Shown here: positions 13,855 through 52,781 of the stretch, in pieces
Position numbering within the stretch: position 1 is the first letter of the stretch
Layout: every line of letters starts with the position of its first letter
Source: Hysterangium stoloniferum
Lineage: Eukaryota; Basidiomycota; Agaricomycetes; Hysterangiales; Hysterangiaceae
Length of the DNA stretch: 64,000 bases
Assembly: GCA_015178975.1 (NCBI GenBank)
Contig: WHVD01000054.1
Span: 310,001 to 374,000 of the forward strand
Reading direction: 5' to 3'
Program-made: the position numbers and the translations under genes
Notes under the pieces: generated by a model
Told to the model about the DNA's origin: nothing
The model's input: the letters and a program-made list of their open reading frames with translations, nothing else
Databases searched by the model: none

Positions 13855-15794
13855 TGTTAGAAGTTATAGTATGGCATGTTGTCGACGCTCGGCTATTTTG
13901 TACTTTACAGTAGCTTAGTCATCACATGTATTTCGGTAGGGACTTTGTCATCCTGTTAGGATACACACACAGGTTGGGTTTCCAGAGAAACCCGCGGGAT
14001 ATCCAGTAGGACTTGGCTTCAGCTTATAGGCTGCGCCCTCGCTAGATCGTGTTGTCCAATTTCAAATGGACGGACGGGAATCCCGGGGAGTCCGGGCGGG
14101 GTTCGTGGGTCATAGGTCGTAAGTCAGGGGTTGTGGGTTGTAAGTCGGAGGTCATGGATCGTGAGTCGAGATAGTTGAGAGAGATAGATGCGCCGGAGCC
14201 TGTGGGCTCCAACTAGTGTGAGCGATGTGAATCAAGTAAGGTTTTAGAGTGGAAAATGTTATTAGATTACTGGGGGGAATCTAAGCTAATTTTCTGACTG
14301 GATTGTATGTACAACATCTGCCAGTTTATATAGACCATGGAGTGAATGACATACCAAATCCAGTAATGGCGAAACCAAACTAACAAAACATGAAACGGGA
14401 ATAGTAAACACCAAATTGGTGTTAGGAACGGAACGGAGCGGAGCGGAGTCCAAATCGTGACAAAGCATAACCATAATGGGAAACGGAGCAGGAGTGGAGT
14501 CCTAAATCGTGACAGGTCATTTGACTAAAATGGGAACGGGGCTCAATTAGAGCGGTGACGGGATTCTAAGCGGGGTCCGGTGACTGATGCGTGGGATGAA
14601 GACGGACATAGACAGAGACGGAGTCCGGGGGAAGTCCGGTGACTGATATGTGTTGTATTGAGGTCGAACGTAACTAGTCTTGATGTGATGGAGTCTGGGC
14701 AGGAAATCCTATAAACAGACGATTGGTGCTTGTAGCGCGTGGGGGCGTACAGGTTAGTGCCCGGAGTCCGGTGGGATTGTCTGGTCGTAACACATCCCCT
14801 CACCCACATGAAATCCCATTGTATATTATTACAGGTTATGGGCCCCGCCAGTTGCCTCTAATTTGCTTATCTACTGCTGCTATATCTAAACTACACCCTT
14901 TTGTCATTGTCAACATTGTTGCTCCTATTTTGAAAAATTTTATCGGCGCAATGAGAGGTGAACTTACAAAGTGTGATATTGGGACTAAAGATACTGTGGA
15001 GTGGCAGTGGTATACGGAGCATGGTTTATTGGAAATGGACTCACAGATTGTTGTACCTGTTCCAAGTACATCTATGGGTTTGATGAAGACAACAACATTC
15101 AACTTCGAGTTCTGCAAACCGACCTTTGCAAAGTAGGCCTGTTGTCCCACGAGTGGCCAGCTGAAGTATTCTGTTATTTGTGGGGACTAGGATTTGTGAG
15201 CAGGGCTCTGAGGTTTGGCATCAGAAATGCGGGAGGTTAGGAGGATGTGTACTAGGAATTGTGAGCCGAAGGTACCATTTGACGCTAATGTAGCGGAGGT
15301 GTGGTCTGGGAGGTTGGGGGAATGCATTCTAGGAGCAAGGGTCACTCCAAGGTTTGATTCAACGCCAAAAGTACCAGATGGAATGCATCTAGTGGGCGCA
15401 GCAGGTGTGTCTTCGATTTTCGGATGGATTGCATCTAGTGGGTGCAGGCATATTTTTTGATTTCAGATGGATTTTTGGACAGATTTTTTGGACAAGTTTT
15501 TGGACAGGTTTTGCGTCAAGTCAGCACAGACATATGTTCGAATTTTTGGACGGGTTTTGCATCAAGTGGGCGTATTTTTCTTATATTGAAAAGGGATTTA
15601 TATTCTTGGTGGGTACATATGGATTTCCTACAAGTTCTCAACAACATGCAAAGTGGGTGTGTTAGAAGTTATAGTATTGCATGTTGTCAATGCTCGGCTA
15701 TTTTGTACTTTACAGTAGCTTAGTCATCACATGTATTTCGGTAGGGACTTTGTCATCCCCTCACCCACATGAAATCCCATTGCATATTCTTACA
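13855..15794 (+). mobile_element. Miniature Copia-type retrotransposon X1
   Basis: Two short LTRs (13855-14833, interrupted by LTR1 copy B; and 15660-15794, 135 bp) start TGTTAGAAGTT and end CTTACA, flanked by TSD TTTTA (13850-13854, 15795-15799). Directly after the left LTR is GGTTATGGGCCCC, the half-initiator-tRNA primer site typical of Copia. The right LTR is preceded by the purine tract AAAGTGGGTG. The internal region of about 825 bp has no gag or pol. It contains a 99-codon open frame (ending at 15136) that is also open in copy X2. The element splits the integrase-core gene. Confidence 0.9.
13954..14792 (-). mobile_element. Solo LTR, family LTR1 (copy B), nested in X1
   Basis: Starts TGTTAGGATACACACAC and ends GTCGTAACA, i.e. 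LTR1 reversed. A perfect 5-bp TSD CATCC (13949-13953, 14793-14797) shows it jumped into the left LTR of X1, so it is younger than X1. Confidence 0.93.
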
Positions 15795-16782: not shown

Positions 16783-18049
16783 TGTGAGGTATCAGCTTTA
16801 TCTCATAATTTTCTCTTAATTTTCTTTGAATTTATTAATATTTTCTCGAATTTATTGTATTTTTTATTATATTTTTATTGTGAAATATAGGCTCTATTCC
16901 TTTTAACTTCACATAATAATAGCATATATGAACTCATATTATGCTATTATATCTTAGTTAATTTATTATAATTTTTAACTAATTATTTATATTTTATTTA
17001 CTTAGTTATTACCTTTCGGCACCTTGTGCAGCCTAGTTTGCGCATTTTTGGAGTCATGTGACTTATTACATAAGCCTCCAGTGTCGGGATGTCACAAAGG
17101 TCACGAATGTGACTACCCGAGTCATTATTAGGTTCCGCCGACTCATCGGTTGCTTCCGTCCCGGGACCGCGGCTTTGAACCTTCATGTTCAAGCAAGAGG
17201 TTAGAACCCTTGTCTCAGAGAAGGGAATCACATGTTAAACAAAGGGTAAATAATGAGTAGAATATGAGGTCATTATGATCTCACTAATGACCTCATAAAC
17301 TAAATAGTTAGCTAATCATTGAGTTATCAAAATGTATATAAGGAGGGCCAAGTTTCCAATAAAACCAATCTATCTCACACATATTTTACAGTACAGCACA
17401 GAAGCTTACCTCATCATCCTAAGGACAATAATAGCCTTAGTCTGATACACTAACTGCAAGCACCTACACTTGCAGCATCTTGAATCTTTGTCAGCAACTC
17501 TTGGACTTAGCTAATCATCTAAGTTCCCCCAGCCTCACAGCTACTCTTTAGGCTTATTAATTAGATAATAAACCTAATAAGTATCTAAGTATCCTTACTG
17601 AAATCCCTGCCAATACTAGATTACTCAAGGCCCAGCCCTAAGTTTATTGACTTAATCAAGTACAAGCACTCAGATAATCCAATACATATTATTTTCTCTA
17701 TTAATAAATTATTTAACACCTTGTTAAATAACTATTAATAGTTAAAAATAAGCATACAAGAATCCGAAGCTCTTATATCAAGTCTCTGCCAAGTTACTGT
17801 GCATATATTCAGCTTCCAGCCCCTATTCTCAAGGAATAGTTCTTGTATTTGCTAAAAGAGTCATACACAGTTCTATTGAACCTATCAATAATCAAAATAA
17901 GCATTGATTTGAGTTGTTTAAGCTTCATAGCGCAGCTCATTAATCTATCAGTATTTAAATTACTGGACCCTTGCTTGTTTTATTGTTGAAGCTCTGTGAC
18001 ACTATAGCATATATTGAGCTATCTAAGAGAATCCCCTGAATACATTACA
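16783..18049. mobile_element. Solo LTR, family LTR2 (copy 1)
   Basis: Runs from TGTGAGGTATCAGC to CTGAATACATTACA with a perfect TSD GTCGT (16778-16782, 18050-18054). It is AT-rich with no coding frame. It carries one unit of the 30-bp repeat that is expanded in the other two copies. It is inverted relative to copies 2 and 3. Confidence 0.92.
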
Positions 18050-18855
18050 GTCGTTTACGAGGTGGTGTCTGCTGGGTAAAAGTTGTCTGTCTCTTTTGGC
18101 GCCGAGAGCGCCCATACGTATACACAAAGCTTCGAACTACAAAATCAAGGTGTGCTCGAAATATAGAAAGAATATAAAGAAAGAAAATAAAAGGTAAATA
18201 ATAAAGTACTATAATCCAGCTATTATTCCTTAGTCCAGGTATGCATATATGCATACCCTTTACACTTAGCTTCAATGTATGTGTTCCATCCTTGCATGAA
18301 ACTGTGAGGTGCTTCAGTATTTAAAAATAAAAAAAAGAAGTATGTACCAGGGTATAAGTCAATGTCTCAGCTGTAAACCAGGGGTCTTGTTAAGGTCTAA
18401 GGTTCAAGGCTAAAGGTAATAGAACTTCAGGGGTCCACAGGTATTAAGATCTAAGGTCTAAAGAAAAAGGGGAAGTGATGCTGGGAGACTGAAGGGTATA
18501 TCATACTTAACCAGGAGGTTCAGTTTTACAAAACAAGTGGAGCTTGGCTTCAACTTATATGTTGCACCCTCACATGAGCTGTGTTAAGATCCTATTATTT
18601 TGGACCCCTGCAACTTGGTTTTACCCTCATAGCCCTCCAGCACCCCACTATCAGTATCCCCAACCATGGTGTCACTGCCTGCAGTGCTGTTAAGATCTAA
18701 GTAAGGGAGGCAAAAGTGTCAGGGTATTGATTTTATTTTATTTTATTTTAATATGCACCTACAAAATAGTACAGGCAAAGGTGTGAGCATGATTATGTAA
18801 TCATGCTGCTGCTCACACAAAAAGTGATGTGGTGCAGCAGCACTGTGATACAATG
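18050..18855. repeat. Decayed LTR remnants
   Basis: No gene. Contains TGTTAAG- and CTGTTAAGATC-type LTR ends, a degenerate copy of the shared LTR block (GCTTGGCTTCAACTTATATG near 18544) and a (TTTTA)n microsatellite at about 18731-18754. Confidence 0.5.
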
Positions 18856-21794: not shown

Positions 21795-24187
21795 ACAGAA
21801 CCTAGCATCAAGAGCTTTGTTGTCCCAAAACTTGACCGTGATGGATCACATTGGGTTACCTGGAAGAACCAGACACTGATGGTACTCAGTGCTGGTAAAG
21901 GTCTAAAATGTCATCTTGAGGGAACTGCAAGGGAGCCGCTGCCGCCGCCGACTTTTGGGGTGAAGCACATTATGACGGAAGATGGTTGGGCCAAGGTCAA
22001 AGCTGCAGAGCAACGACAGGACGAATTTGAACAATGCAAGGTGTACATCAAAGCCCAGATTTTCACATCCATTGAACCAAGTCTCCAGATTGAGATTCAG
22101 AAGCTAAAAACAGCAAAAGAAGTGTGGAATGCATTATGCCTCAAACATGAGGGTAAAGTGCTGTTAGTTAAAATTGACATCAGACGTTGCATGTATGAAA
22201 TGAAGTGTGAAGATGACTCAGCAGTCAAAACACACCTCGAAGAACTTATGAAGATGCAAGCCCAGCTTGAGGGTATGGGTTCTGGTCTATCTAATGACGA
22301 CCTAGTCACCATTACATACTTGGGTCACTGCCGAAAACCTACAGACCAGTCATCAGCATGATATCAATGTCTGTGAAATTCACCACATCACCCCTTGAAC
22401 CAAACAAAGTGGTCGAAGCTATAATTGAAGAATACGAAAGACTTACTATTGAAGAGAAGAAACTGAAGGCTTCTGAAACTGCTATGTCAGCATCCAAGCA
22501 CCATGGGAAATCAAATAACACACAGAAATTGGAGAAGTCCTACGAAAACATGGAGTGTTGGAACTGTGGGATTGTGGGTCACATTTCAGCTGAATGCCGG
22601 AAACAAAAGAAGGGACAAGGGAAACACAAACGGAGAGGGGAGAAGTCGAAAGCAAATGCAACAATGTCAAGCACAGATTTCGCATTTACAACTACATTCT
22701 CTGGATCCATGCAATCCTGGGAAACGAGCCCACTTCGACACACCGAAATAGATGTATACGATTCAGCAGTGCCAAACCATATGTCCCCTAGCCGCCATCA
22801 CTTCGTCACATTTAGAGAAACTACCCCACACCCAATAGAAGCTGCTGACAAAACCGTTTTTCATGCAACTGGAATTGGGAGCATGAAAGTCACTATGCCA
22901 AATGGAAAGTCAATGGTTAATGTGACATTGAACAATGTGCTGTACTCACCAGACCTAGCCTTCACATTAATCTTACTTGCTCGCTGCAACAAATCAGGCT
23001 ACTCAGTGCTGCTGAAAAATCGGAGATGTACAATCAGGGATCCAGATGGCAAACTCATTGGTGAAATTCCCCTTGCCAATGACGGTCTATACAAAGTGGA
23101 ACATAAGACCTACCATAGTATTGCAAACTTGACCTCAAAGAAAATATCAATTGATGAACTGCACCGACAACTAGGGCACATTGAACCTAACGCAGCAAAG
23201 AAGTCAGTTCAGGACAGTCATATCCTCGGAATAAACCTGGACTTGTCTAGTGAGCCAACCTTTTGCACAGCATGTGTGCAGGCCAAAATCACACGATTGC
23301 CCATACCAAAAGAGCACACCAGCAAAATTGCAGCAAATGTTGGCCATAAGATACACTCAGATGTATAGGGTCCTGCAAACCCCAAAAGCTACAATGCAAA
23401 AACTTACTTTGCCAGTTACACAGATGACAAGACCCAATGGTCATCACTTGCCATGTTAGGACAGAAAAGCAATGTGTTTCAAGCCTACAAAGAATACGAA
23501 GCATGGGTTTGCATGCAACATAACAGAAAAATAAAAGTATTGCAGACAGACTGACATGGTGAATATTTATCAAATGCATTCACTGAATACCTAAAATTGC
23601 AGGGAACAGAACGCCGATTGACAGTACATGACACTCCTCAACAGAATGGCATATCTGAATGACTAAACTGCATGCTATTAGAACACATCCGTGCCATGAC
23701 AATTGCTGCAAACTTACCAAAGTTCTTATGGACTGAAGCCATAAAACATGCAACCTGGCTGAAAAACCATACCTCAATGAGTGTCCTGGATGGACACACC
23801 CCATATGTGTCATGAAACGAGAAACCGAACCTGGGAAATGTTCCAGAATGGGGCACGAAAGCATGGGTACTCAAGGAAGAACATGGGAAATTGGAAACAA
23901 AAGCAGATGAAGGACATTGGGTAGGATTCAGTGATGAAAGTAAAGGTCACCGTATTTATTGGCCTAGGAAATGCCGTGTTACAATTGAATGTAGCATCAG
24001 ATTCGATGAATCAACCACTGTCATTCTAGATGATGTACAGACTGAGGGAAGGAATATGATCCCAGACAGCCAGAACATCATGCAAAATGACATACCTATG
24101 CCCCAACAACAACCACCGATCCCAAATGACACGCAGCACGCCCGAATCGACCCACTTGAAGATTTTGAAGAGGCAGAAACTGGATGA
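21786..24187 (+). pseudogene. Copia gag-protease-integrase remnant
   Basis: The gag frame starts MGLTEPSIKSFVVPKLDRDG and ends at 22361. The next frame, overlapping by ATGA at 22358, carries the zinc knuckle CWNCGIVGHISAEC and a protease-like YDSAVPNHMSP, where the usual DSG reads DSA. A GAG-pre-integrase finger (ELHRQLGH...CTACVQAK) and the first integrase Asp (HSDV) follow. It then stops at about 23368. Downstream the integrase continues with in-frame stops: QTD-stop-HGEYLSNAF, TPQQNGISE-stop-LN, PYVS-stop-NE. The reading frame reopens (GHWVGFSDESKGHRIYWPRK) to 24187. The first two stops fit CGA-to-TGA changes. Reverse transcriptase and RNase H are absent: sequence is lost at the LTR1 copy C junction. 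Confidence 0.85.
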
Positions 24188-24242: not shown

Positions 24243-25083
24243 TGTTACGACCAGACAATCCCCCCAGACTCCGGGCACTAACCCGTACGCCCCCACACGC
24301 TACAAGCACCAATCATCTGTTTATAGGATTTCCTGCCCGGACTCCATCACGTCAATACTAGTTACATTCGACCTCAATACGACATATATCAGTCACCAGA
24401 CTTCCCCCGGACTCCGTCTCTGTCTATGTCCGTCTTCGTCCCACGCATCAGTCACCGGACCCCCGCTTAGAATCCTGTCACCACTCTAATCGAGCCCCAT
24501 TCCCGTTTTAGTCAAATGACCTGTCACGATTTAGGACTCCGCTCCCGCTCCATTTCCCATTATGGGTTATGCTTTGTCACGATTCAGACTCCACTCCATT
24601 CCGTTCCGTTCCTAACACCAATTTGGTGTTTACTATTCCCGTTTCATGTTTTGTTAGTTTCGTTTCACCATTACTGGATTTGGTATGTCATTCACTCCAT
24701 GGTCTATATAAACTGGCAGATGTTGTACATACAATCCAGTCAGAAAATTAGCTTAGATTCCCCCCAGTAATCTAATAACATTTTCCACTCTAAAACCTTA
24801 CTTGATTCACATCGCTTGCACTAGTCGGAGCCCACGGGCTCCGGTGCATCTATCTCTCTCAACTATCTTGACTCACAATCCACGACCTCCGACTTACGAC
24901 CCACGACCCCCGACTTACGACCTACGACCCATGAACCCCGCCCAGGCTCCCTGGGGCTCCCGTCCGCCTGTCTGAAATTGGACAACACGATCTAGCGAGG
25001 GCGCAGCCTATAAGCTGAAGCCAAGTCCTACCGGATATCCTGTGGGTTTCTCTGGAAACCCGGCCTATGTGTGTATCCTAACA
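24243..25083 (+). mobile_element. LTR1 copy C
   Basis: TGTTACGACCAGACAATCC to GTATCCTAACA, 841 bp. Unlike the other copies its flanks (CCAGG and CAGTT) do not match, so it may have arisen by recombination that also deleted the Copia 3' half. Confidence 0.88.
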
Positions 25084-39178: not shown

Positions 39179-39639
39179 ATGAGTTTGTTGAGTGACAAGG
39201 GTAAGGTTTGCCTCCGTTTTCTCAACATTTGTCCACAGGGATGTCCCCAATGAAGAAATGTGGTGGCCATTCTATTATCACAAAACACAAGCCAAAGCCA
39301 AAGCTGGCAAGACTGACCGTCGCCGAGTTGAAAATGGCCAAAGACGTCTCGATAAAAAAGCACAGATTCACGAAAAGTACAAACATCAAATACGACCAAC
39401 GGCTCCGTGAGGCCAGAACATGGTTGAAGGAGCTGGTGGAAACAGAGCAATCCCCCACAATTCCTTTAGGGGTGGATGAACTTGACAGTTTTGACTGGAT
39501 GCCGGGAGAGCTAGAAGGTGCATTCAACAACATACCAACTCGGGCTTCACCTTGGGTTCTTGGGTTGTTTATCGCATACAAGTGCTTCACCCAGAAGACT
39601 AAAGTGACAACAGCATGGCAGATACTATTGGAAAATATT

Positions 39640-39711
39640 GGACTGGCCAGGAATTGAACCTGGGACCATCTGTAATCTAGACTGGATGCTCTACCACTGA
39701 GCTACCAACCC
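39640..39711 (-). tRNA. tRNA-like sequence in the downstream (3') LTR of the miniature element
   Basis: 72 bases with a seven-pair acceptor stem (GGGTTGG/CCAGTCC, two wobbles), D-arm GCTC...GAGC and T-arm CCAGG TTCAATT CCTGG. Box A (TAGCTCAGTGG) and box B (GGTTCAATTCC) of a Pol III internal promoter are intact. The anticodon arm does not fold into a normal 5-bp stem with a 7-base loop, so it is probably not a working tRNA. Confidence 0.65.
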
Positions 39712-39959
39712 TTTAGGTACTCAGTAGTGAAGTCAACTCTATATGGCCATTAACATTCCATATACACAGAAACTGTGAGAGACAGTCACACATTCGCACT
39801 GCTCTAAAGCTGAGTTTAGGCTGTCAAACCAACCATATCCAACACACCCACCTGGGAGACAGGCTAATGCCATGTCACACCCACCTAATTAGGCAAGTGG
39901 CTACCAGAAAGGAATTTACCACAGGGAAGCTCAGGGCCCATAACCTATTGGAAAATATT

Positions 39960-40031
39960 GGACTGGCCAGGAATTGAACCTGGGACCATCTGTAATCTAG
40001 ACTGGATGCTCTACCACTGAGCTACCAACCC
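39960..40031 (-). tRNA. tRNA-like sequence in the upstream (5') LTR of the miniature element
   Basis: Identical in arrangement to 39640-39711, offset by exactly 320 bases. Boxes A and B are intact. It would drive Pol III transcription toward the primer site and internal region. Confidence 0.65.
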
Positions 40032-40680
40032 TTCAGGTACTCAGTAGTGAAGTCAACTCTATATGGCCATTAACATTCCATATACACAGAAACTGTGAGA
40101 GACAGTCACACATTTGCACTGCTCTAAAGCTGAGTCTAGGCTGTCAAACCAACCATATCCAACAGATACATGCAGATTCAAACAGGTGTGGGAAACTGTG
40201 TATGTAAATAAAAATTACTAGTGTCTTCTGTGTATTATCACTGACGTTGTATGGTACATATAATTAGAGACCCTAATGGAAGATGGTCTGGCCCCTGGCG
40301 ATGGGATCACAAGAAAGGGACTGGTTGTGGCAATCCAGCCAATTCTCGAGAAGTTGAATGCACAATTGACGCCATCAAACGCCGTGATGGAAATGAGGGG
40401 AGCCGTTCACACTCTGCAGCGATGACGAAACAGGATATGGACAGAATGGTTCAATGGTCAAATAAGCTTTGTCCAGATTCAAGGCTAGAAGAACTTGGAA
40501 AGCTATCCCAGGGAGAATACTGGAAGCAACTTCCTTTTGCCATCAAGCACTTTATGATGCGTGCATTTGCTACAAGCGGATTCACCCTATGGACCTGGTG
40601 CGTCTTTTGCAGCTACTGATTGAAGTGAAGTGCCAGAGTTTGACTATTTAATTTATTTCAGGAATTTTGAACTTGCCAAG

Positions 40681-41500
40681 TGTTAGAATACACACTCAGG
40701 CCGGGTTTCCGGAGAAACCCGCGGGATATCCGGTAGGACTTGGCTTCAGCTTATAGGCTGCGCCCTCGCTAGATCGTGTTGTCCAATTTCAGACAGGCGG
40801 ACGGGAATCCCGGGGAGTCCGGGCGGGGGTTCGTGGGTCGTGAGTCGTAGGTCGTGAGTCGAGAGTCGTGAAACGAGATAGTCGAGAGAGATAGATGCGC
40901 CGGAGCCCGTGGGCTCCGACTAGTGCGAGCGGTCTGATAAGAGTAGGGTTTTAGAGAGGAAAATGTATTAGATTACTGGGGGGAATCTAAGCTAATTTTC
41001 TGACTGGATTGTATGTACAACATCTGCCAGTTTATATAGACCGTGGAATGCATGACATACCGAATCCAGTAATAATGAGACGAAACGAGCAAAACATAAA
41101 ACGGGAATAGTAAACACCAAATTGGTGTTAGGAATGGGACGGAACGGAGCGGAGTCCGAATCGTGACAAAGCATAACCCATAACGGGAAATGGAGCGGGA
41201 GCGGAGTCCTAAATCGTGACAGGTCATTTGACTAAAACGGGAACGGGGCTCGATTAGAGCGGTGATGGGATTCTAAGCGGGTTCCGGTGACTGGTGCGTG
41301 GGACGAAGACGGACATAGACAGAGACAGGGTCCGGGGGAAGTCTGGTGACTGATATGTGTCTTAATGAGGTCGAACGTAACGAGTCTTGACGTAACGGAG
41401 TCCGGGCGGGAAATCCTATAAACAGACGATTGGTGCTTGTAGCGTGTGGGGGCGTACGAGTTAGTGCCCGGGGTCCGGCGGGATTTGTCCGGTCGTAACA
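40681..41500 (-). mobile_element. 3' LTR of the Ty3 element (LTR1 copy D)
   Basis: TGTTAGAATACACACTCAGG to GGTCGTAACA on the plus strand. By eye it differs from the 5' LTR at about 17 of 820 positions, all transitions and nearly all at CpG. Confidence 0.93.
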
Positions 41501-41594
41501 GTATCCTCTCTTTATGCCGAAGTCCCAAAGAGGCTCTAGACCTAAATAAGGTTCTTGTCGGCTATGCGCATGTGTCAAAAGTCATGTCGGTTAC

Positions 41595-42948
41595 TGTAAT
41601 GTATTCAGGGGATTCTCTTAGATAGCTCAATATATGCTATAGTGTCACAGAGCTTCAACAATAAAACAAGCAAAGGTCCAGTAATTTAAATACTGATAGA
41701 TTAATGAGCTGCGCTATGAAGCTTAAACAACTCAAATCAATGCTTATTTTGATTATTGAAAGGTTCAATAGAGCTGTGTATGACTCTTTTAGCAAATACA
41801 AGAACTATTCCTTGAGAATAGGGGCTGGAAGCTGAATATATGCGCAGTAACTTGGCAGAGACTTGATATAAGAGCTTCGGATTTTTGTATGCTTATTTGT
41901 AACTATTAATAGTTATTTAACAAGGTGTTAAATAATTTATTAATAGAGAAAATAAATTGTATTGGATTATCTGAGTGCTTGTACTTGATTAATTCAATAA
42001 ACTTAGGGCTGGGCCTTGAGTAATCTAGTATTGGCAGGGATTTCAGTAAGGATACTTAGATACTTATTAGGTTTATTATCTAATTAATAAGCCTAAAGGG
42101 TAGCTGTGAGGCTGGGGAACTTAGATGATTAGCTAAGGTCCAAGAGTTGCTGACAAAGATTCAAGATGCTGCAAGTGTAGGTGCTTGCAGTGAGTGTATC
42201 AGACTAAGGCTATTATTGTCCTTAGGATGATTAGATAAGCTGGTGCTGTGCTGCAAATATGTGTGTGATAAGATGATTTTATTGGAAACTTAGCCCTCCT
42301 TATATACATTTTGATAACTCAATGATTAGCTAACTATTTAGTTTATGAGGTCATTAGTGAGATCATAATGACCTCATATTCTACTCATTATTTACCCTTT
42401 GTTTAACATGTGATTCCCCTCTCTGAGACAAGGGTTCTAAGCTTTGGCTTGAACATGAAGGTTCAAGGCCGCGGTCCCGGGGACGGAAGCAAACGATGAG
42501 TCGGCGGAACCTAATAATGACTCGGGTAGTCACGTTCGTGACTTGCGTGACTCGGGTAGTCACATTCGTGACTTGTGTGACTCGGGTAGTCACATTCGTG
42601 ACTTGTGTGACTCGGGTAGTCACACTCGTGACCTTTGTGACATCCCAACACCGGAGGCTTATCTAATAAGTCACATGACTTCAAAAATGCGCAAACTGAG
42701 CTGCAGCAAGTGCCGAAAGGTAATAACTAAGTAAATAAAATATAAATAATTAGTTAAAAATTATAATAAATTAACTAAGATATAATAGCATAATATGAGT
42801 TCATATATGCTATTATTATGCGAAGTTAAAAGGAATAGAGCCTATATTTCACAATAAAAATATAATAAAAATACAATAAATTCGAGAAAATATTAATAAA
42901 TTCAAAGAAAATTAAGAGAAAATTATGAGATAAAGCTGATACCTCACA
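41595..42948. mobile_element. Solo LTR, family LTR2 (copy 2), nested in the Ty3 element
   Basis: TGTAATGTATTCAGGGG to GATACCTCACA, 1354 bp, TSD GTTAC (41590-41594, 42949-42953). It lies between the 3' LTR and the accessory gene. It carries four units of a 30-bp repeat (42519-42638). Confidence 0.92.
42519..42638. repeat. 30-bp tandem repeat inside LTR2 (4 units)
   Basis: Units begin GACTCGGGTAGTCAC and continue .TTCGTGACTTGTGT. Each centres on GTCACG-TT-CGTGAC or a near variant, an inverted repeat. LTR2 copy 3 has three units (49637-49726) and copy 1 has one (about 17094-17124). Confidence 0.9.
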
Positions 42949-43068
42949 GTTACACGTATGTGTCAAAGAGTCATGTGATCTGGAAGGTAAGGTTCAAATG
43001 CGACGAGCCTATATAAAAAATTGAAAAATAGAAATTTCTTCTTCTTTATTACCCCCATCTTCGTCACT

Positions 43069-44050
43069 ATGGGACCAAAACCAACACCACGCAAGCCAAT
43101 GCCGACAGCAGGGCCCTCCACGGGCACTCCGTATCGGGCGCCGTGGACGGCGGCCCAATTGTTGGCGCGGCGAGAAGAGCAGCGCCAGCTTCGTGAAGCA
43201 GCAGAGAGAGAGGCGAGGGAGGCTGAGGAGGCCCTGGACAGAGAGTACCAGGAAGCATTGGCCCCGGAGGAAGAGGCCGCAAAGGAGAGGGAACGTGAGG
43301 CGGAGGAGGCTGTGCGAGTGGCCGCGGAGAACGCCCGGGTGGCTGCGGAGAAAGCCCGGTTGGCCGCAGAGAGGGCCGCCATTGTTGCGGGAAAAGTAAG
43401 TCCCAAATTCACTTGTCGACTTTTACTGACTTGTGATTTTCAGCGCAAGGCGACAGAGGTGGAGTCCGAGTCCGAGGGGGAGCCAGAGAGCCCCCAAAAG
43501 GTAGGCCTCATGTCCATGGAATACCCGCGGAGACTGACCATCTCAACAGAAGGCAAGGAAGGCGGCGCCAGTCCGTCTTCCGACGCGGAACGAGCCGCGG
43601 TGTTCCGGTTGCAACGACCGGAACACGGAATGCAACCGAAAGGCCGGCTGGGGGCCGGGATGTTATCAATGCGCGCACCTCAAGGCGAGGTGCTCGCTTG
43701 TGCACGAGCAGGCCACGGGATCCGGGGCGCGAGACATAAGCGGGACGGACGGGTTGTCCGGGTTGGACGAGGTCCTTGGACGAATCGCCGAGGGCATCGA
43801 GGCCCAAAACGAGTTGCTCCAGAAGAGCAACAAGGTCCAAATTGTGGTGGCAAAGGAGCTGTCCGGACTCCGCGAGGAGTTTTGGAAGTTCCTGGCGGAG
43901 TATGGCGGCTATGTGTATAAGGAGCCGCAAGTCGGGAGTTCCGAGGATGCCGGATCGGATGAGGACGGGGTTGCCGCGGAGGTCGCGGAGCTCCCAGAGG
44001 AGATAGCTGAGGAAGCAGGGAAAAAGAACAGTCCCATAAATGTAGACTGA
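43069..44050 (+). CDS. Antisense accessory gene of the Ty3 element: coiled-coil Zn2Cys6-type protein
   Basis: Three exons, 43069-43395, 43444-43500 and 43550-44050, with GT-AG introns of 48 and 49 bases, give 294 residues ending SPINVD. All junctions keep frame. Residues 1-25 are basic and Pro-rich (MGPKPTPRKPMP). Residues about 28-108 are a charged Ala/Glu/Arg coiled coil (EAEEALDREYQ, AAENARVAAEKARLAAERAA). Exon 2 is acidic. Exon 3 starts with basic KARKAAPVRLPTR. Six cysteines follow at about 146, 149, 156, 166, 169 and 176 (CSGCNDRNTEC, then CYQCAHLKARC), i.e. CX2CX6C-X9-CX2CX6C, the Zn(II)2Cys6 pattern. The rest is helical and acidic (GRIAEGIEAQNELLQKSNKV). It lies between pol and the 3' LTR on the opposite strand, GC-rich and free of stops. 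Function unknown. DNA or chromatin binding is inferred from the cysteines. Confidence 0.8.
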
Positions 44051-44257
44051 AAAGTAGTATAGAATAAAATAATTTGAATCATAAAAGCAAAGCGTGAAAG
44101 AAAAACATAAAAATTAAAAGTCAAAGCCAAAGTCCGCAGGGAATCCGCTTAAAGACTTGACAAGACATGTCAGAACCTGTAAAAGCAAAGAGAGACATAG
44201 GGCGACAGGGAATAGTGAAAATGAGTCCAAACGTAACACGGGGTCCGCGGAGTGTGG

Positions 44258-47200
44258 TCAGAGAGACGATAATGGTCCAGGTTTTAGTGGGTAAGCTGTG
44301 TGAAAGTCAGTAACGATTTCCGTGGCATTACCGAGTTCCGTGGCCAAAATCCATGAGGTCTCTTCATCGGTGCCCTCGTAACCCGCCCACTTAACCAAGT
44401 AAAGCAGTTTACAAGTGCGTCGACGCTTGTCAATTTTTGAATCTAAAATCTGAGAGATTTCAAACTCGGGTTCTCCGTCAATGACGACAGGAGGAGGTGG
44501 AGATTGCATGCGATCCGGGATAGTGTTAGCAGTACAAGGTTCTAGCATAGAGACATGAAATACCGGGTGTACCACGCGCATGCTATCCGGAAGCTGTAGA
44601 GTCCAAGAAACTGAACCTACTTGTGCAATAATTTCAAAGGGACCTAAATATTTTTCAGCAAGCTTCTTTGATGGACGGGTAGTCCGGAAGAATTGAGCTT
44701 TGACATAAACACGGTCGCCAATCTTGAAGTTTGGTGGCGGGATCCGGTGTTTGTCCGCTGAATGTTGGTATTGCTCTTGGGCGGACAATATTGCAGTCCG
44801 GAGTTCCTCGTGGAGCTCGTGGAGGTCCGTGGTGAACTCTTGAGCACGAACAGAGGCGAGATTTCGTTCTGGATGTACTGTAATGTTTGGATTATATCCT
44901 TTATTTGCAAAGAACGGGGAAACGCCAGTAGTGGCCGAGGGTGCATTGTTGTAAGCAAACTCTGCAAGTGGTAACAAGGTTTTCCAATTGTCCTGTTGAT
45001 AGTTGCAATATACGCGGAGGTATTGTTCCAATGTCTGGTTGACGCGTTCGGTTTGTCCGTCACCTTCCGGGTGATGTCCGGACGTGAAATGTAATGTCAT
45101 GTCCAAGGATTTTCCGAGGGATCTAAAGAAGTGAGACACGAACTCTGATCCTCGATCGGAAGTCACGTGGGACGGAACTCCGTGCTTGGAAAATACGTGG
45201 ATAATGAAAAGTTCCGCTAACTGCACGGACGTAATTGTATCATAAGTAGGGATGAATATACCTTGTTTTGAGAATCTGTCAACAACAACTAGAATAGTGG
45301 AATAGCCTTCGGAATCCGGTAGGTGTTCAATGAAATCCATAGATATAGAATTCCACGGGTGTTCCGGTACCGGGAGTTGTTTCAAAATGCCGTATGGCTT
45401 GTGTCGCTGAGATTTCGAGCGGGGACAAGTAGTGCAAGATTTACAATAGTGCTTAACGAATCCACGGAGTCCGGGCCAAGTATATTCTCTTCTTATTAAT
45501 GATAGAGTTTTGTTGTACCCGAAATGTCCTGAGAGTGGATGATCATGTTTGTATTGAAGGATCCTGAGGCGGAGGCCGTCGGAGTCCGGTACATAGATCC
45601 TATCGTCGAGTCTAATGAAACCATGTTGATCAAGAGACCACCGAGGTTGATCGGGGTCCACGGGATTGTCCAGATGAGCTTTAGTAACTGGGTCTAGCGG
45701 AATTGCCGATAGAATATCTTGATGTAACTTTTCGATATCCATAATGATAATTCCACGGACAATGGGATTGACGAGGAAAGTTGCGCGGACCGATGCGGTA
45801 AGTTGTTGATTCGTGAAGATAGGTTTCAGGTTGTGCGGATTTACCGTTGCATAGTCGTTGCTCCCCTCTTTAGGATAGACGTCCCATCGTCTAGTTAAAG
45901 CGTCGGGTTTGCCGCCGAGATGGCCGGGTTGAAAACGGATAATCATGTTGAAGGCGGAGAGATATTCAGACCAGCGGGCCTGCCGATGGGTCAAGAGTTT
46001 TGTGGTAGAAAGGTATTCCAGGTTTTTGTGATCTGTTACAATGTCAATAGGAGCTCCTGAACCTTCCAAATAGTGTCGCCACGCTTTGAAAGCTGAAAAG
46101 ATTGCCAGAAGTTCTTTATCATGAACATCGTAGTTGAGCTCTGCTCCGGTAAAAGTCCGGGACAGAAAAGCCACGGGGTGGACTTCTCCGTCGGAGTCCT
46201 GGATAGAGAGAATGGCTCCAAGTGCATAGTCGGAGGCGTCCGTTTCAACAATGAGCGGGAAGTCCGGTTTCCAATGCGACAGAATAGGAGCTGTGGAAAA
46301 AGAATTTTTTAAAAGATTGAAAGCTTTTTGACACTTATCGTTAAAGTTCCACGGAGTACCCTTACGCGTAAGACGGGTAAGGGGTACCGTGATGTCGGAA
46401 TATCCACGGATAAAACGTCTATAAAAATTGGCAAAGCCGAGGAAGGATTGTATATCTTTAACTTTTCGGGGTTCGGGCCAATCTTTGATGACTTGCACTT
46501 TAGTTTCGTCCATGTGGAGTCCATCAGGTCCCATCATGAAACCTAGGTATTCCACGGAGTCCGTGTCAAAAGTACATTTTTTACCATTTGCGAATAAACC
46601 ATGTTGTCTGAGCCTCCGGAGAACTTCACGGACTTGTTTGTCGTGTTCCGCGGGATTCTCGGAGTAGATAAGAATGTCGTCCAAGTAAACAATGACGCAT
46701 ACATCGAGCATGTCGGAGAAAATGTCGTTGATAAAACGCTGAAAAACAGACGGGGCATTAGTGAGTCCAAAAGGGATGACCAACCACTCGAAGGCCCCAT
46801 AGCGGGTTCTAAAAGTGGTTTTCCATTCATCGCCCGCGGCAATCCAGACCAAATGATAGGCGTGCTTGAGATCTATTTTGGTGTAAATCCGGGCATTCCA
46901 CGGAGCATCGAGCAGGTCAGATATAAGTGGGAGTGGATATTTGTCCTTTTTGGTGACAGCATTGAGTCCTCTAAAATCAACACATAGTCGAAGGGATCCA
47001 TCCTTTTTTCTGACAAACAAAACAGGTGCTCCAAAAGGAGACTTTGAGGGTCGAATAAAACCTATGGACAAATGTTCATCCAGGAAATCACGGATTGCGG
47101 ATAGTTCCGTGGACGAAAGCGGGTAAATATGTCCTAGGGGTGGCTGGGCGCCATCTTCAAGATCAATTTTTAAGTCGTATTCTCTGTGAGGCGGAAGCCG

Positions 47201-48115
47201 GTCAGCTTTTCGCTTGCTAAAAACATCCGCGAAGTCATGGTATTTCTCCGGGATGCCTTCTAGGTCAGCAGCTTGCTCAGATTCGGATACTGGGGTTGAG
47301 AAACGTCCAGTTGCTTCATCAATTTTTAAGTTGATAGTGAATGCCTGGGACCCATCCATTTTTGAAGCCCTAATAAAAGCTGCAGCATTAATCAGAGAAA
47401 TGGACGGAGGTGCCGTGGGTTCCGGGGAAGCTGTAGGTGCCGTAGGGATCACAGGAGTCCTCGAGACTGCAGGTGCCGGGAAGGCCATGGGTGCCGTGGA
47501 GGCCGAGACAGGCGCAGTTTCCTCGGTCGCCGCGGGGGTCCGGAAAGTTATACTGTTAGCTATCCAGTCAATCAACGGATTGTAGCGGGTAAGCCAGTTA
47601 TGTCCTAGAACCACCGAGCAACTTGAGTCTAACTGGGTCACATAGAAAGTGACCAATTGAGATGTTCCACAAGGGAAACTGATGGGTAAATCACAAGCTT
47701 GGGTAACAACCGAATTACTTGTGCCATCGAAGAGGCGGAGAGTGACGGGATTTATCGAATAAGTTGACAAAGAATTTTTTTGCGTAAATTTTGTATCTAA
47801 AAAACAATGAGTCGAGCCGGAATCTATGAGAGCTGAAAAAACGAATTTCGGAAGCATATTAGACATAAGTTTAACGAAAAATGAATCAGAATGTGAAAGA
47901 GCGGATGCGTTGAGGCGAGTGAACTCTTGAATGTGCGGAGAGGCAACGCAACCCCTAACCCGCGCGGAGTCCGCGGGGTTGCTTACTCTTTTTTCGAATC
48001 GGCAGCCGGTTTGTCCTTCGACGGGGTTTCCGTGGAGGCTTTGGCTGATCGACCCTTTGAAGAGTTTGCTTTTGCCAGCGGACATTCCGGGACTCGATGA
48101 CCGGGTTTCCCGCAC
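44258..48115 (-). CDS. Ty3 pol: protease, RT, RNase H, integrase, chromodomain
   Basis: 1285 codons without a stop. Protease DSG at residues 98-100. Reverse transcriptase about 305-520, with YLDD at 477-480. RNase H from TDASDYALGA near 625. Integrase zinc finger H859/H864/C891/C894, catalytic Asp 927, Asp 987 and Glu 1023 (35 residues between the last two). A chromodomain near the C-terminus contains KLLYLVKWAGYEGTDEETSW. All key residues are present, so the enzyme looks intact. The frame is -1 relative to gag and overlaps it by 133 bases. The M used for the start is formal, since pol is probably made by frameshifting. The chromodomain suggests targeting to modified histones. Confidence 0.95.
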   Translation of the reverse strand: MRETRSSSPGMSAGKSKLFKGSISQSLHGNPVEGQTGCRFEKRVSNPADSARVRGCVASPHIQEFTRLNASALSHSDSFFVKLMSNMLPKFVFSALIDSGSTHCFLDTKFTQKNSLSTYSINPVTLRLFDGTSNSVVTQACDLPISFPCGTSQLVTFYVTQLDSSCSVVLGHNWLTRYNPLIDWIANSITFRTPAATEETAPVSASTAPMAFPAPAVSRTPVIPTAPTASPEPTAPPSISLINAAAFIRASKMDGSQAFTINLKIDEATGRFSTPVSESEQAADLEGIPEKYHDFADVFSKRKADRLPPHREYDLKIDLEDGAQPPLGHIYPLSSTELSAIRDFLDEHLSIGFIRPSKSPFGAPVLFVRKKDGSLRLCVDFRGLNAVTKKDKYPLPLISDLLDAPWNARIYTKIDLKHAYHLVWIAAGDEWKTTFRTRYGAFEWLVIPFGLTNAPSVFQRFINDIFSDMLDVCVIVYLDDILIYSENPAEHDKQVREVLRRLRQHGLFANGKKCTFDTDSVEYLGFMMGPDGLHMDETKVQVIKDWPEPRKVKDIQSFLGFANFYRRFIRGYSDITVPLTRLTRKGTPWNFNDKCQKAFNLLKNSFSTAPILSHWKPDFPLIVETDASDYALGAILSIQDSDGEVHPVAFLSRTFTGAELNYDVHDKELLAIFSAFKAWRHYLEGSGAPIDIVTDHKNLEYLSTTKLLTHRQARWSEYLSAFNMIIRFQPGHLGGKPDALTRRWDVYPKEGSNDYATVNPHNLKPIFTNQQLTASVRATFLVNPIVRGIIIMDIEKLHQDILSAIPLDPVTKAHLDNPVDPDQPRWSLDQHGFIRLDDRIYVPDSDGLRLRILQYKHDHPLSGHFGYNKTLSLIRREYTWPGLRGFVKHYCKSCTTCPRSKSQRHKPYGILKQLPVPEHPWNSISMDFIEHLPDSEGYSTILVVVDRFSKQGIFIPTYDTITSVQLAELFIIHVFSKHGVPSHVTSDRGSEFVSHFFRSLGKSLDMTLHFTSGHHPEGDGQTERVNQTLEQYLRVYCNYQQDNWKTLLPLAEFAYNNAPSATTGVSPFFANKGYNPNITVHPERNLASVRAQEFTTDLHELHEELRTAILSAQEQYQHSADKHRIPPPNFKIGDRVYVKAQFFRTTRPSKKLAEKYLGPFEIIAQVGSVSWTLQLPDSMRVVHPVFHVSMLEPCTANTIPDRMQSPPPPVVIDGEPEFEISQILDSKIDKRRRTCKLLYLVKWAGYEGTDEETSWILATELGNATEIVTDFHTAYPLKPGPLSSL

Positions 48116-50598
48116 AAGAGACAGAGGTTGTTGTCCATACGACGTTGTCTTTCTTGTGGAGTCAATTTGCCATCAGGTCCGAGTTTGCCTGAGAGGTCGG
48201 GTTTTCCGGCTTGCTTGCTGGACTGTTGACCCTTGTTGTTGTCCTTATTGTCCTTATTGTTGTTGTTGTTTGAAGACTTTTTATCGTTCTTCTTGTCGGA
48301 TTGCGTGGAGTTCTGGTTGCTGGTTGACGAATTGGTGTTATTGTTTTTGTCCTTGGACTTGTTTATTTTGTCCGCGGATGTCTCGCGGGCAACTTCCGCG
48401 CGACGTTCCCAATAACGTGCGTCCGCGTTTTGAGCTTTGAGGCGCATACGGGACAGGGTTTTTGGCTTGCCATCTTCTCCTTTCGAGACTTCGTCTTTAA
48501 GGCGGGACGGCAAACCGGCGTAGAATTGGTGGCGGAGAGCGGGATCGCCCCACTGACAACGAGCTGCAAGATTATTGAATTGGACGATGTAGTCCGTGAT
48601 GCGCTGCGTGTCCTTCATACGAAGATTTGTGAGACTATTCTCGGCTTCTCCTGTCGGGTCATACGGGCCGAAGTTGGTTTCAAGCTCCTCAACAAAAGCT
48701 TCCCAATTTTCAAGCCTGTAATGTATTCAGGGGATTCTCTTAGATAGCTCAATATATGCTATAGTGTCACAGAGCTTCAACAATAAAACAAGCAAAGGTC
48801 CAGTAATTTAAATACTGATAGATTAATGAGCTGCGCTATGAAGCTTAAACAACTCAAATCAATGCTTATTTTGATTATTGAAAGGTTCAATAGAACTGTG
48901 TATGACTCTTTTAGCAAATACAAGAACTATTCCTTGAGAATAGGGGCTGGAAGCTGAATATATGCGCAGTAACTTGGCAGAGACTTGATATAAGAGCTTC
49001 GGATTCTTGTATGCTTATTTGTAACTATTAATAGTTATTTAACAAGGTGTTAAATAATTTATTAATAGAGAAAATAAATTGTATTGGATTATCTGAGTGC
49101 TTGTACTTGATTAATTCAATAAACTTAGGGCTGGGCCTTGAGTAATCTAGTATTGGCAGGGATTTCAGTAAGGATACTTAGATACTTATTAGGTTTATTA
49201 TCTAATTAATAAGCCTAAAGGGTAGCTGTGAGGCTGGGGAACTTAGATGATTAGCTAAGTCCAAGAGTTGCTGACAAAGATTCAAGAAGCTGCAAGTGTA
49301 GGTGCTTGCAGTGAGTGTATCAGACTAAGGCTATTATTGTCCTTAGGATGATTAGATAAGCTGGTGCTGTGCTGCAAATATGTGTGATAAGATGATTTTA
49401 TTGGAAACTTAGCCCTCCTTATATACATTTTGATAACTCAATGATTAGCTAACTATTTAGTTTATGAGGTCATTAGTGAGATCATAATGACCTCACATTT
49501 TACTCATTATTTACCCTTTGTTTAACATGTGATTCCCTTCTCTGAGACAAGGGTTCTAACCTCTTGCTTGAACATGAAGGTTCAAGGCCGCGGTCCCGGG
49601 ACGGAAGCAAACAATGAGTCGGCGGAACCTAATAATGACTCGGGTAGTCACGTTCGTGACTTGTGTGACTCGGGTAGTCACAATCGTGACTTGTGTGACT
49701 CGGGTAGTCACATTCGTGACTCGTGTGACATCCCGACACTGGAGGCTTATGTAATAAGTCACATGACTCCAAAAATGCGCAAACTAGGCTGCACAAGGTG
49801 CCGAAAGGTAATAACTAAGTAAATAAAATATAAATAATTAGTTAAAAATTATAATAAATTAACTAAGATATAATAGCATAATATGAGTTCATATATGCTA
49901 TTATTTATGCGAAGTTAAAAGGAATAAGGCCTATTTTTCACAATAAACATAATAAAAATACAATAGAAATTAAAGAAAATATTAAATAATTCAAAGAAAA
50001 TTAAGAGAATATTATGAGATAATGTTGATACATCACAAAGCCAGAGCGGCTCTTCCTCGGTAATCCCGCTAAAAGCCGGTTCGAACCATTTCAACGCGGA
50101 TCCCGACAAATATGAAAGTGCGTAGTTGACTTTTCGGGAGTCCGTGGAGAATGCAGCGGCTCGATCGCGGAAATTGAAGCGACATTGCATGAGGAAAGTA
50201 GAGAGTTTGTTTGGGTTGGAACCCGTGAAGGGTTCCGGAGCATTGACTTTTGACCGTGGAGGTTCTTGTTCCTTTCTTTTTCGTTCTTCTAGCAGGTGCG
50301 TCATGAATTTATCTATAGTACCTGCTAAAAACTCAGAAGTAGGATCCCTCGTGTTCGGTCGTTGAAAAGGCGGAGGATTTTCAGGAGGGATTTCGACACC
50401 TTTGCCCTTGTCGGGGGCCACGGAATCGTCCTCGCGCTCGGATTCGTCCAGGTCTTCCGGGATTTCTTCGATGCGGGCTTCTTCCATGGGTTCCGACTGG
50501 TTCGCAAGCATCTGACTGGTATACAGAGTTAACGGGGAATGAAGAGTCGACGGTCCAGGCATTGATGACTGTGCGCGTGTACTTCTTCTTGGTGGCAT
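47983..50598 (-). pseudogene. Ty3 gag, interrupted by LTR2 copy 3
   Basis: Start MPPRRSTRAQSSMPGP at 50598 (an ATG six codons upstream is in frame). The capsid-like part runs through APEPFTGSNPNKLSTFL and KWFEPAFSGITEEEPLWL. LTR2 copy 3 then interrupts. Gag continues from 48711 through NWEAFVEELETNFGPYDPTG. An Asn/Lys-rich linker follows, then a single zinc knuckle CLLCGKPGHRVPEC, and it ends ADSKKE at 47983. The terminal codons contain a run of six A (TCG AAA AAA GAG TAA), a candidate -1 slip site just before the stop. Without the LTR2 copy the frame would be open. Confidence 0.9.
48717..50037. mobile_element. Solo LTR, family LTR2 (copy 3), inside gag
   Basis: TGTAATGTATTCAGGGG to GATACATCACA, 1321 bp, TSD AAGCC (48712-48716, 50038-50042). 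Very similar to copy 2 apart from one fewer 30-bp unit, so both probably inserted recently. Confidence 0.93.
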
Positions 50599-50621
50599 AA
50601 TGAAAACAATCTGCAAGTATT

Positions 50622-50632
50622 AGTCAGAAAAT
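50622..50632 (-). promoter_or_regulatory. Self-complementary primer-binding site of the Ty3 element
   Basis: On the element strand the sequence two bases after the 5' LTR is ATTTTCTGACT. It is the exact complement of AGTCAGAAAAT, which lies at the predicted RNA 5' end in the LTR (50959-50949). Tf1 of fission yeast primes itself by just such an 11-base pairing. Confidence 0.7.
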
Positions 50633-50634
50633 AC

Positions 50635-51454
50635 TGTTAGAATACACACTCAGGCCGGGTTTCCGGAGAAACCCGCGGGATATCCGGTAGGACTTGGCTT
50701 CAGCTTATAGGCTGCGCCCTCGCTAGATCGTGTTGTCCAATTTCAGACAGGCGGATGGGAATCCCGGGGAGTCCGGGCGGGGGTTCGTGGGTCGTGAGTC
50801 GTAGGTCGTGAGTCGAGAGTCGTGAAATGAGATAGTCGAGAGAGATAGATGCGCCGGAGCCCGTGGGCTCCGACTAGTGCGAGCGGTCTGATAAGAGTAG
50901 GGTTTTAGAGAGGAAAATGTATTAGATTACTGGGGGGAATCTAAGCTAATTTTCTGACTGGATTGTATGTACAACATCTGCCAGTTTATATAGACCGTGG
51001 AATGCATGACATACTGAATCCAGTAATAATGAGACGAAACGAGCAAAACATAAAACGGGAATAGTAAACACCAAATTGGTGTTAGGAACGGGATGGAACG
51101 GAGCGGAGTCCGAATCGTGACAAAGCATAACCCATAACGGGAAACGGAGCGGGAGTGGAGTCCTAAATCGTGACAGGTCATTTGACTAAAACGGGAACGG
51201 GGCTCGATTAGAGCGGTGACGGGATTCTAAGTGGGTTCCGGTGACTGGTGCGTGGGACGAAGACGGACATAGACAGAGACGGGGTCCGGGGGAAGTCCGG
51301 TGACTGATATGTGTCTTAATGAGGTTGAACGTAACGAGTCTTGACGTAACGGAGTCCGGGCAGGAAATCCTATAAACAGACGATTGGTGCTTGTAGCGCG
51401 TGGGGGCGTACGAGTTAGTGCCCGGAGTCCAGCGGGATTTGTCCGGTCGTAACA
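50635..51454 (-). mobile_element. 5' LTR of the Ty3 element (LTR1 copy E)
   Basis: 820 bp, no length difference from the 3' LTR. The right edge GTCGTAACA is followed by CCAAG, matching the TSD at 40676. Confidence 0.93.
50949..50992 (-). promoter_or_regulatory. Ty3 5' LTR core promoter and transcript start
   Basis: TATATAAA (50992-50985 on the minus strand) lies 33 bases upstream of AGTCAGAAAAT, the presumed start of R. The same spacing is kept in LTR1 copies A-D. Confidence 0.6.
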
Positions 51455-52781
51455 CCAAGCTACAGTATAAGCATCTCACCCTGGACCTCAAGACAAATGA
51501 CGATTACAAATATGCCCATTTCAAGGTCTCTTTACTCAATAGGAAGAACTGGGCTCACCATCAAACCAGAGATGAAATCATACATGGTTAGTTCTCTCTC
51601 TTTTTTTGGCTTTAATTTTGAAATGAATATATCAATAGGGCATGAATACCAGATATATGAACAGCCAGAGAATCCGAACATCAACATGTATTTCCATTTT
51701 CTTCGGTGGCTCAAATTTTCCGAACAATTCATTTACCACCGTCCACTAGAAGTGGACGACTACATTTTTCCTGCGATAGGCTCCAACGGAATTGCCCAGA
51801 TCGAGACCCCCATTCCCCATGATACCATTCAAAAATGGCTTGATGAGTTTGTTGGGGCATGTGAGATTAATTTGGGTCAAGGCCAGCTGACGACGCACTG
51901 TTTTCGCCGAGGTGGAGCACAGTATTGTTTTATGTATGCACACTTTGGGAAGCGATGGAGTCTAGCAGTCATTCGGTGGTGGGGAGGATGGGCTGAAGGA
52001 GAACATGTATGTCCTCTTAATGGTTTTGTGGCATGGATATCTAACTAAATCCTAACTAAACTAACCCCTCCCCCTAAAAACCCCCCCCACCCACAATAAT
52101 CACAGCAGGACACGCTGATTTGGTACCTGCTGGACAAACTCTATCACTACGAAGAATCTCATGGTGACACCCTCTGGCCGATCTCTCATGAAGCCGACAG
52201 GTTGTTTCTCAGCGAACACATTGAGATGTGGCCGCCCTCGAAACTCGAGCTACGTGAAATGATGGTGGCGCAGATGAAGGCACTTGAGGAAAGGATCCTC
52301 GCTTCGTTAACTGCTGCCGCTGTTGGTAACACCGCCATCTTTGCTGCTTTGGGCGACAGGAACACTGACAACCCAGGAGGGGTGGATTATGCTGGCCCAC
52401 GCTCTCGACCATCCCAAACGACACTGAGGGAAATGGATGAGATCGATATGGATACAAATGCAGGCCCTGCTGTGCTCACCTTGCCGGAAAACCGCAAGCT
52501 GTGTATCCCCTCAATCGCATGGAAAGGCCCACTGCATCCATGCTGGAAGCAGATAATCCGTGATTGGGAATGCGCCGATCCACCCTGTGGCCACTACATC
52601 CCACTCAAGGATTGGGATCCCGAATGGCTGAGAGGAGAGAATCGGACGATGTTCGGCGTGAAGTATCGCCAAAGGAAGCTGGTCGTGATAGAGTACATCG
52701 ACAGGTGAGTCCTCACGCATCGTTTATCTGTCCGTTGGTTTCTCAATTCTCGATTCACATTCGCACTGTTGCAGATGTCAG

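Follow-up and report, generated by a model that had tools for sequence, protein, structure and literature searches.

Can a retrotransposon carry, on the strand opposite its own coding genes, a spliced gene that is maintained as part of the element? The question is raised by a locus of Hysterangium stoloniferum, a false truffle (Hysterangiales) described as ectomycorrhizal (PMC7550596), whose genome assembly comprises 111 Mb in 554 contigs. The DNA analyzed is a stretch of 64,000 nucleotides (contig WHVD01000054.1, positions 310,001 to 374,000), hereafter the window, and all coordinates are counted from its first letter. On its minus strand lies a Ty3/Gypsy chromovirus whose pol gene encodes reverse transcriptase (RT), RNase H, integrase and Chromo in that order according to Pfam, the last of these matched at 27.7 bits (cut-off 25.1). 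On the plus strand, beside pol, an earlier note had described an intact-looking, spliced gene of Zn2Cys6 type and had inferred that its product is an expressed accessory protein and not a fragment picked up by the element. Judged from the sequences of its copies, this antisense gene belongs to a chromovirus lineage and is maintained there by selection; very probably it encodes a real protein, is driven by its own promoter and evolves under purifying selection.

The gene consists of three plus-strand exons at 43069-43395, 43444-43500 and 43550-44050, which join exactly into the 294-residue protein of the earlier description and are separated by introns of 48 bp (43396-43443) and 49 bp (43501-43549) on the same strand, each beginning with GT and ending with AG. 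Exon 1 (109 codons) is rich in alanine, glutamate and arginine and coiled-coil-like by composition; exon 2 (19 codons) contains an acidic and serine stretch with QK at its end; exon 3, including the stop codon, encodes a basic KARK stretch, a six-cysteine cluster, a helical-looking segment and an acidic tail. The cysteine codons lie at 43601, 43610, 43631, 43661, 43670 and 43691, with the spacing CX2CX6C-X9-CX2CX6C that had been claimed, and no cysteine occurs elsewhere in the protein. Basic stretches KRK and KKARK can also be read in its sequence, and the DNA has an AATAAA at 44063. The placement between pol and the 3' long terminal repeat (LTR), on the opposite strand of the element, holds as well. 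The description antisense to pol is correct for the strand but not for an overlap: the gene lies beyond the end of pol and converges with it tail to tail, 207 bp separating the two stop codons.

The antisense gene recurs with the element throughout the genome. A search of the organism's own genome with exon 3 returned at least 150 matches with 80-100% identity, and 110 of those listed are free of stop codons. Both this search and the corresponding one with the end of pol comprise the best 150 matches, so that the counts of paired features are lower bounds. A convergent pol end lies 195-228 bp away for at least 105 of the 150 exon-3 matches listed; reciprocally, among the 100 best matches to the pol end, at least 90 have exon 3 within 1.5 kb. 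More specifically, all 20 loci retrieved at 4.9-10 kb exhibit the same order of LTR, antisense gene and pol, with gaps of about 155-212 bp on the LTR side of the gene and about 200 bp on its pol side; both LTRs are present in 17 of these loci, and the other three end at contig ends. In these 17 loci and in the window, the two LTRs share 91.7-100% identity, and identical 5-bp target duplications flank 13 of the 18 elements, which suggests that the family has transposed recently and repeatedly while carrying the antisense gene. In the one case inspected from another Ty3 family (L059), a 2-kb piece beginning 186 bp past the SH3 match of its pol contained no relative of the gene.

Selection on the gene was estimated from an alignment of 47 copies, namely the window and 46 others, all drawn from the exon-3 matches listed without a stop; this choice biases exon 3 but does not bear on exons 1 and 2, the splice sites or the promoter. 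A complete reading frame is found in 37 of the 47 copies. Exon 1 measures 327 bp in 38 copies, the rest having in-frame deletions, frameshifts or truncation, and exons 2 and 3 retain their lengths of 57 and 501 bp in 46 and 45 copies, respectively. The pairwise ratio of nonsynonymous to synonymous substitution rates (dN/dS) is 0.24-0.39 over six divergence bins, which hold 1057 of the 1081 pairs (dS exceeds 0.6 or is undefined in the remaining pairs). In the deepest bin, at a mean dS of 0.50, the ratio is 0.24 for the gene, 0.35 for exon 1 and 0.20 for exon 3. When the same 15 copies (105 pairs) are compared, the antisense gene yields 0.259 and pol 0.188. All seven of the pairs chosen have 95% bootstrap intervals entirely below 1; because copy pairs are not independent, the dN/dS values are to be read as effect sizes rather than as a formal test. 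The comparison among copies that the earlier note had proposed thus gives ratios well below 1. Its distinction between a real accessory protein and a captured fragment appears well supported in favor of the former by conservation and selection across the copies.

GT and AG are retained at both introns in every one of the 47 aligned copies. Among the 37 that are intact, insertions and deletions in exons occur in multiples of three and intron lengths vary freely, from 48 to 59 bp for intron 1 and from 48 to 51 bp for intron 2 among copies. Retention of intron 2 would break the frame in every one of the 37, and retention of intron 1 in 27, the other 10 staying open. Together with the complete frames and the low dN/dS, these invariant splice sites bear out the earlier view of an intact gene and show that it is no chance frame. 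Anything that is copied via its own mRNA normally loses its spliceosomal introns. Their presence in all of the copies may be explained because copying of the element would proceed through the sense RNA, in which the introns are reversed, present no splice sites and would not be cut; in this way they would survive each round.

Upstream of the gene, a TATA box, CCTATATAAAA, is located at 43010-43017 on the plus strand, 59 bp 5' of the ATG, and its TATATA core is present in 45 of the 47 copies, the remaining two being truncated on the 5' side. It is preceded by a conserved block (42958-43003, plus strand) containing the second copy of the motif ATGTGTCAAA(G)AGTCATGT; the first copy, ATGTGTCAAA-AGTCATGT, is found at 41570-41589 (plus strand), the second having been split off from it by a nested insert. 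Over 197 pairs with a mean dS of 0.49, the two truncated copies being excluded, the 44 bp at 42960-43003 show 3.2% divergence and no gaps; the introns show 22.5 and 25.5%. Uninterrupted copies (five across the whole region) possess two tandem ATGTGTCAAA(G)AGTCATGT versions, and the second version is also found in seven more copies and in the window (42958-42978), two with a changed base. Because the TATA core, the 44-bp block and the tandem motif are all conserved upstream of the gene, they suggest that the gene has a promoter to itself and does not rely on one in the LTR.

The role of such a gene may be sought in the regulation of the element itself. The reading put forward here, to which about an even chance is assigned, is that a Ty3/Gypsy chromovirus lineage carries an accessory gene whose product acts in trans as a nuclear regulator of the element. 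RNA polymerase II would transcribe the gene from its own TATA box, and the spliced mRNA would be translated into a zinc-binding, coiled-coil, nuclear protein. In trans, this protein would act upon the element; its most likely mode is to bind DNA or chromatin, at the LTR or at the promoter, and thereby to set sense transcription, as HBZ does in human T-cell leukemia virus type 1 (HTLV-1). An HBZ-like nuclear regulator is a likely role and the likeliest of those considered; control of transcription, silencing or target choice, as the earlier note had envisaged, is what we infer. Held more tentatively is the narrower proposal that the protein is a zinc-cluster transcription factor of its own element, setting the transcription or chromatin state of the copies in trans as a fungal counterpart of HBZ of independent origin. 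The six cysteines are kept in 280 of the 282 cells that they occupy in the 47-copy alignment, and CX2CX6C-X9-CX2CX6C fits the spacing rule of Zn2Cys6 proteins. The broader reading of a nuclear regulator is also favored by the KRK and KKARK stretches, by the acidic tail and by published antisense products that are nuclear or are predicted to bind DNA.

Several observations weigh against this regulatory reading. Stops interrupt 40 of the 150 exon-3 matches listed, and 10 of the 47 aligned copies are broken, whether by a frameshift, a stop, loss of the stop codon or truncation at the 5' end. Among the 54 pairs of the closest bin (dS below 0.02), exon 1 alone yields a dN/dS of 0.99, with few changes, and the 17-bp TATA segment taken as a whole is about as diverged as the 5' untranslated region (10% versus 12% in the deepest bin). 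The designation Zn2Cys6-type can be upheld for the number, spacing and near-invariance of the cysteines, but not at the level of the family profile: in the Pfam search that the earlier note had called for, Zn_clus (PF00172) scores 9.1 bits with the window's exon 3 against a cut-off of 21, is not among the matches of the window's protein at E up to 1, and is listed for 12 of 12 family members only at E up to 10, the best E being 0.12. DUF5539, also below its cut-off, matches better (E 0.008). AlphaFold models are uninformative, with confidence (pLDDT) of 45.7 for exon 3 and 44.8 for the 52-residue cysteine piece, and searches of solved structures gave no match better than E 0.24. Protein searches with the spliced protein, with residues 128-250 and with an exon-3 profile recovered only two fragments, both of Hysterangium stoloniferum (one of them BU17DRAFT_80596), one search having scored only the 7999 candidates that shared most words; a scan of viral contigs yielded 42 pattern matches, none of which was confirmed. 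This lack of relatives outside Hysterangium is weak evidence, because repeat genes are often masked in annotations. Because Zn_clus is weak, the models are uninformative and no outside homologue was recovered, the product is here called a six-cysteine protein and not a Zn2Cys6 factor; it probably binds zinc, and its membership in the Zn2Cys6 class is not established.

The search for a target site in the element adds to these points. Zn2Cys6 factors often bind CGG triplets, and pairs of CGG/CCG exceed their frequency in shuffled sequences in the LTR, but also in a pol piece and in the antisense gene. The octamer CGGAGTCC occurs at 21 sites in the window, where 1.05 are expected; each LTR of the window element contains three and pol contains five, and the remaining clusters coincide with single LTRs belonging to this family. 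Neither enrichment counts as evidence for operator sites in the LTR, both being unspecific and also found in pol, and the promoter motif ATGTGTCAAA is absent from the element's LTR. Therefore no target site has been shown.

Other explanations account for parts of these data. A chance open frame, or the mirror of a sense-strand gene, is favored by one minus-strand frame with a dN/dS as low as 0.35; such a value is expected, however, since this frame shares its wobble positions with the real one, and the other control frames give 1.69, 0.97, 1.58 and 1.21. Since the three minus frames stay free of stops over 200 amino acids in only 2, 0 and 4 of the 47 copies, and the conserved splice sites, TATA core and exon phase all belong to the plus strand, this explanation is contradicted and the least probable of all. 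Scarcely more credible is a host gene fragment, captured recently, that travels with the element as a passenger and does nothing for it. The G+C content of the gene (61.6%, versus 52.3% for the LTR and 46.9% for a 2-kb pol piece) and its introns do suggest descent from a host gene, and such an origin by capture is possible; a functionless passenger is nevertheless contradicted by purifying selection at dS values up to about 0.5 and by the presence of the gene alongside pol in most of the best-matching copies.

The remaining two explanations grant the gene a function. According to one, the antisense transcript itself is the active agent: complementary to about 1 kb of the genomic RNA, it would trigger silencing by double-stranded RNA or block the sense RNA, and the protein would be secondary. 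The convergent layout, in which the two stop codons of the window copy are 207 bp apart, would suit such a role, which is among those considered for plant elements in PMC7264820; it is nonetheless improbable, as it leaves unexplained the dN/dS of 0.26, the in-frame exons, the near-invariant cysteines and the conserved introns. A more serious competitor, doubtful yet quite possible, is a real and selected accessory factor that is no DNA-binding regulator, a zinc-binding coiled-coil protein serving particle assembly, RNA handling, nuclear import or integration. Selection and conservation fit it equally well, the missed Zn_clus cut-off and the long helix-like Ala/Glu/Arg stretch of exon 1 speak for it, and what opposes it is the indication of a nuclear protein given by the conserved basic residues adjoining the cysteines and by the antisense products that PMC7264820 and PMC11963269 describe as nuclear or predicted to bind DNA.

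The element that carries the gene is itself interrupted. Its 3' and 5' LTRs (40681-41500 and 50635-51454, minus strand) are each 820 bp long and 98.05% identical, with the target-site duplication CCAAG on both sides. Pol (44258-48115, minus strand) comprises protease, RT, RNase H, integrase, SH3 and chromodomain by Pfam. Gag is divided into a 3' part (47983-48716, minus strand), with zinc-knuckle and Retrotrans_gag matches below cut-off, and a 5' part (50038-50598, minus strand), with matches to DUF4939 (E 2.1e-6) and Ty3_capsid (E 0.0046), both likewise below cut-off. The division is due to a TG..CA insert at 48717-50037 with AAGCC on both flanks, the second copy of the 1.35-kb insert nested in the antisense promoter region at 41595-42948, which is flanked by GTTAC on both sides; the ends of both were set by eye. 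From their ends and 5-bp duplications, these inserts are probably solo LTRs of another family. A third copy of this 1.3-kb element is found at 16783-18050, and all three contain tandem TGACTCGGGTAGTCAC units. Between the 5' LTR and the gag ATG (50598-50634, minus strand), the sense strand reads CTGACTAATACTTGCAG, in which a branch-point-like and an AG acceptor-like sequence were noted by eye; this suggests, as a hint, a 5' leader intron ahead of gag.

Elsewhere in the window, three more LTRs of the same Ty3 family are located at 10880-11719 (minus strand), 13954-14792 (plus strand) and 24243-25083 (minus strand); they are 88-91% identical to the LTR of the window element, and no other element parts were matched with them in the window. 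A plus-strand stretch at 22358-23368, with zinc knuckle and Pol_BBD above cut-off and gag_pre-integrase just below, reads as a Ty1/Copia-type gag-pol fragment. Adjoining the Ty3 insertion site is a plus-strand open reading frame (51497-52048) without a Pfam match at E 0.01, which contains HCFRRGGAQ, a motif that we take to be tyrosine-recombinase-like (Crypton type). A protein encoded at 32-1276 (plus strand) matches the silencing protein Clr2 at 28.1 bits (cut-off 25), and a 220-bp direct duplication is found at 39625-39844 and 39945-40164, its units 99% identical and starting 320 bp apart.

Genes in this position are known from plant Ty3/Gypsy elements as antisense open reading frames (aORF-3R), including gene23 of Grande, that of RIRE2 and TRP28 of Retand (PMC7264820, PMC11963269). 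As reported there, gene23 has its own upstream promoter and a nuclear product (PMC7264820), and the antisense TRP28 protein, predicted to bind DNA, occurs in 97% of recently active Retand clusters (PMC11963269). The terms intron and zinc are absent from the main texts of PMC7264820 and PMC11963269. Like the aORF-3R, the Hysterangium gene is antisense to gag-pol between pol and the 3' LTR, occurs in most copies of its family and is conserved to a degree comparable with the element's other proteins, judging by pol. Unlike it, the aORF-3R are hosted by plants and Retand is a non-chromovirus, and the likeness is one of description.

A fungal parallel is provided by the Boty element of Botrytis cinerea, whose antisense gene brtn was reportedly described by Zhao et al. 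2011. Boty, as presented in PMC7264820, PMC8365987 and PMC4227169, resembles the Hysterangium element in that it combines gag-pol and a CHROMO domain with an antisense gene in the interval from pol to the 3' LTR; its host, however, is an ascomycete, and the two are likened by description alone.

Gal4-type Zn2Cys6 factors share with the Hysterangium protein the spacing of six cysteines followed by a helical-looking segment. These factors have basic residues in the first loop; in the Hysterangium protein, where this loop reads NDRNTE, they are not obvious. According to PMC10186651, HBZ of HTLV-1 is a nuclear factor encoded antisense that also exists in a spliced form and reduces expression from the 5' LTR. 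Like the Hysterangium gene, that of HBZ is antisense and borne by a retroelement, and its spliced form, nuclear product and regulatory role have predicted counterparts in Hysterangium. HBZ differs in being a bZIP protein, with the 3' LTR itself serving as its promoter, whereas the Hysterangium gene has a separate TATA promoter between LTR and gene, and Pfam scans of the window's protein and of family members revealed no bZIP family.

Antisense accessory genes of retrotransposons are thus a known kind, consisting mostly of open frames without assigned function in the account of PMC7264820. No report of the present gene was found in the open-licence literature, where PMC7550596 is the one paper that turned up on Hysterangium stoloniferum and transposable elements. 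A basidiomycete example that joins a pair of conserved introns to a promoter of its own and a six-cysteine product appears to be a new form of this kind. Its support comes from selection and from conservation of splicing and of the promoter across many copies in one genome, and its cysteine motif can be tested. It also suggests a route by which spliceosomal introns may persist in a retroelement, namely by standing in the wrong orientation in the RNA that is copied. The gene opens the question of whether retroelements repeatedly evolve regulators encoded on their antisense strand, as deltaretroviruses did.
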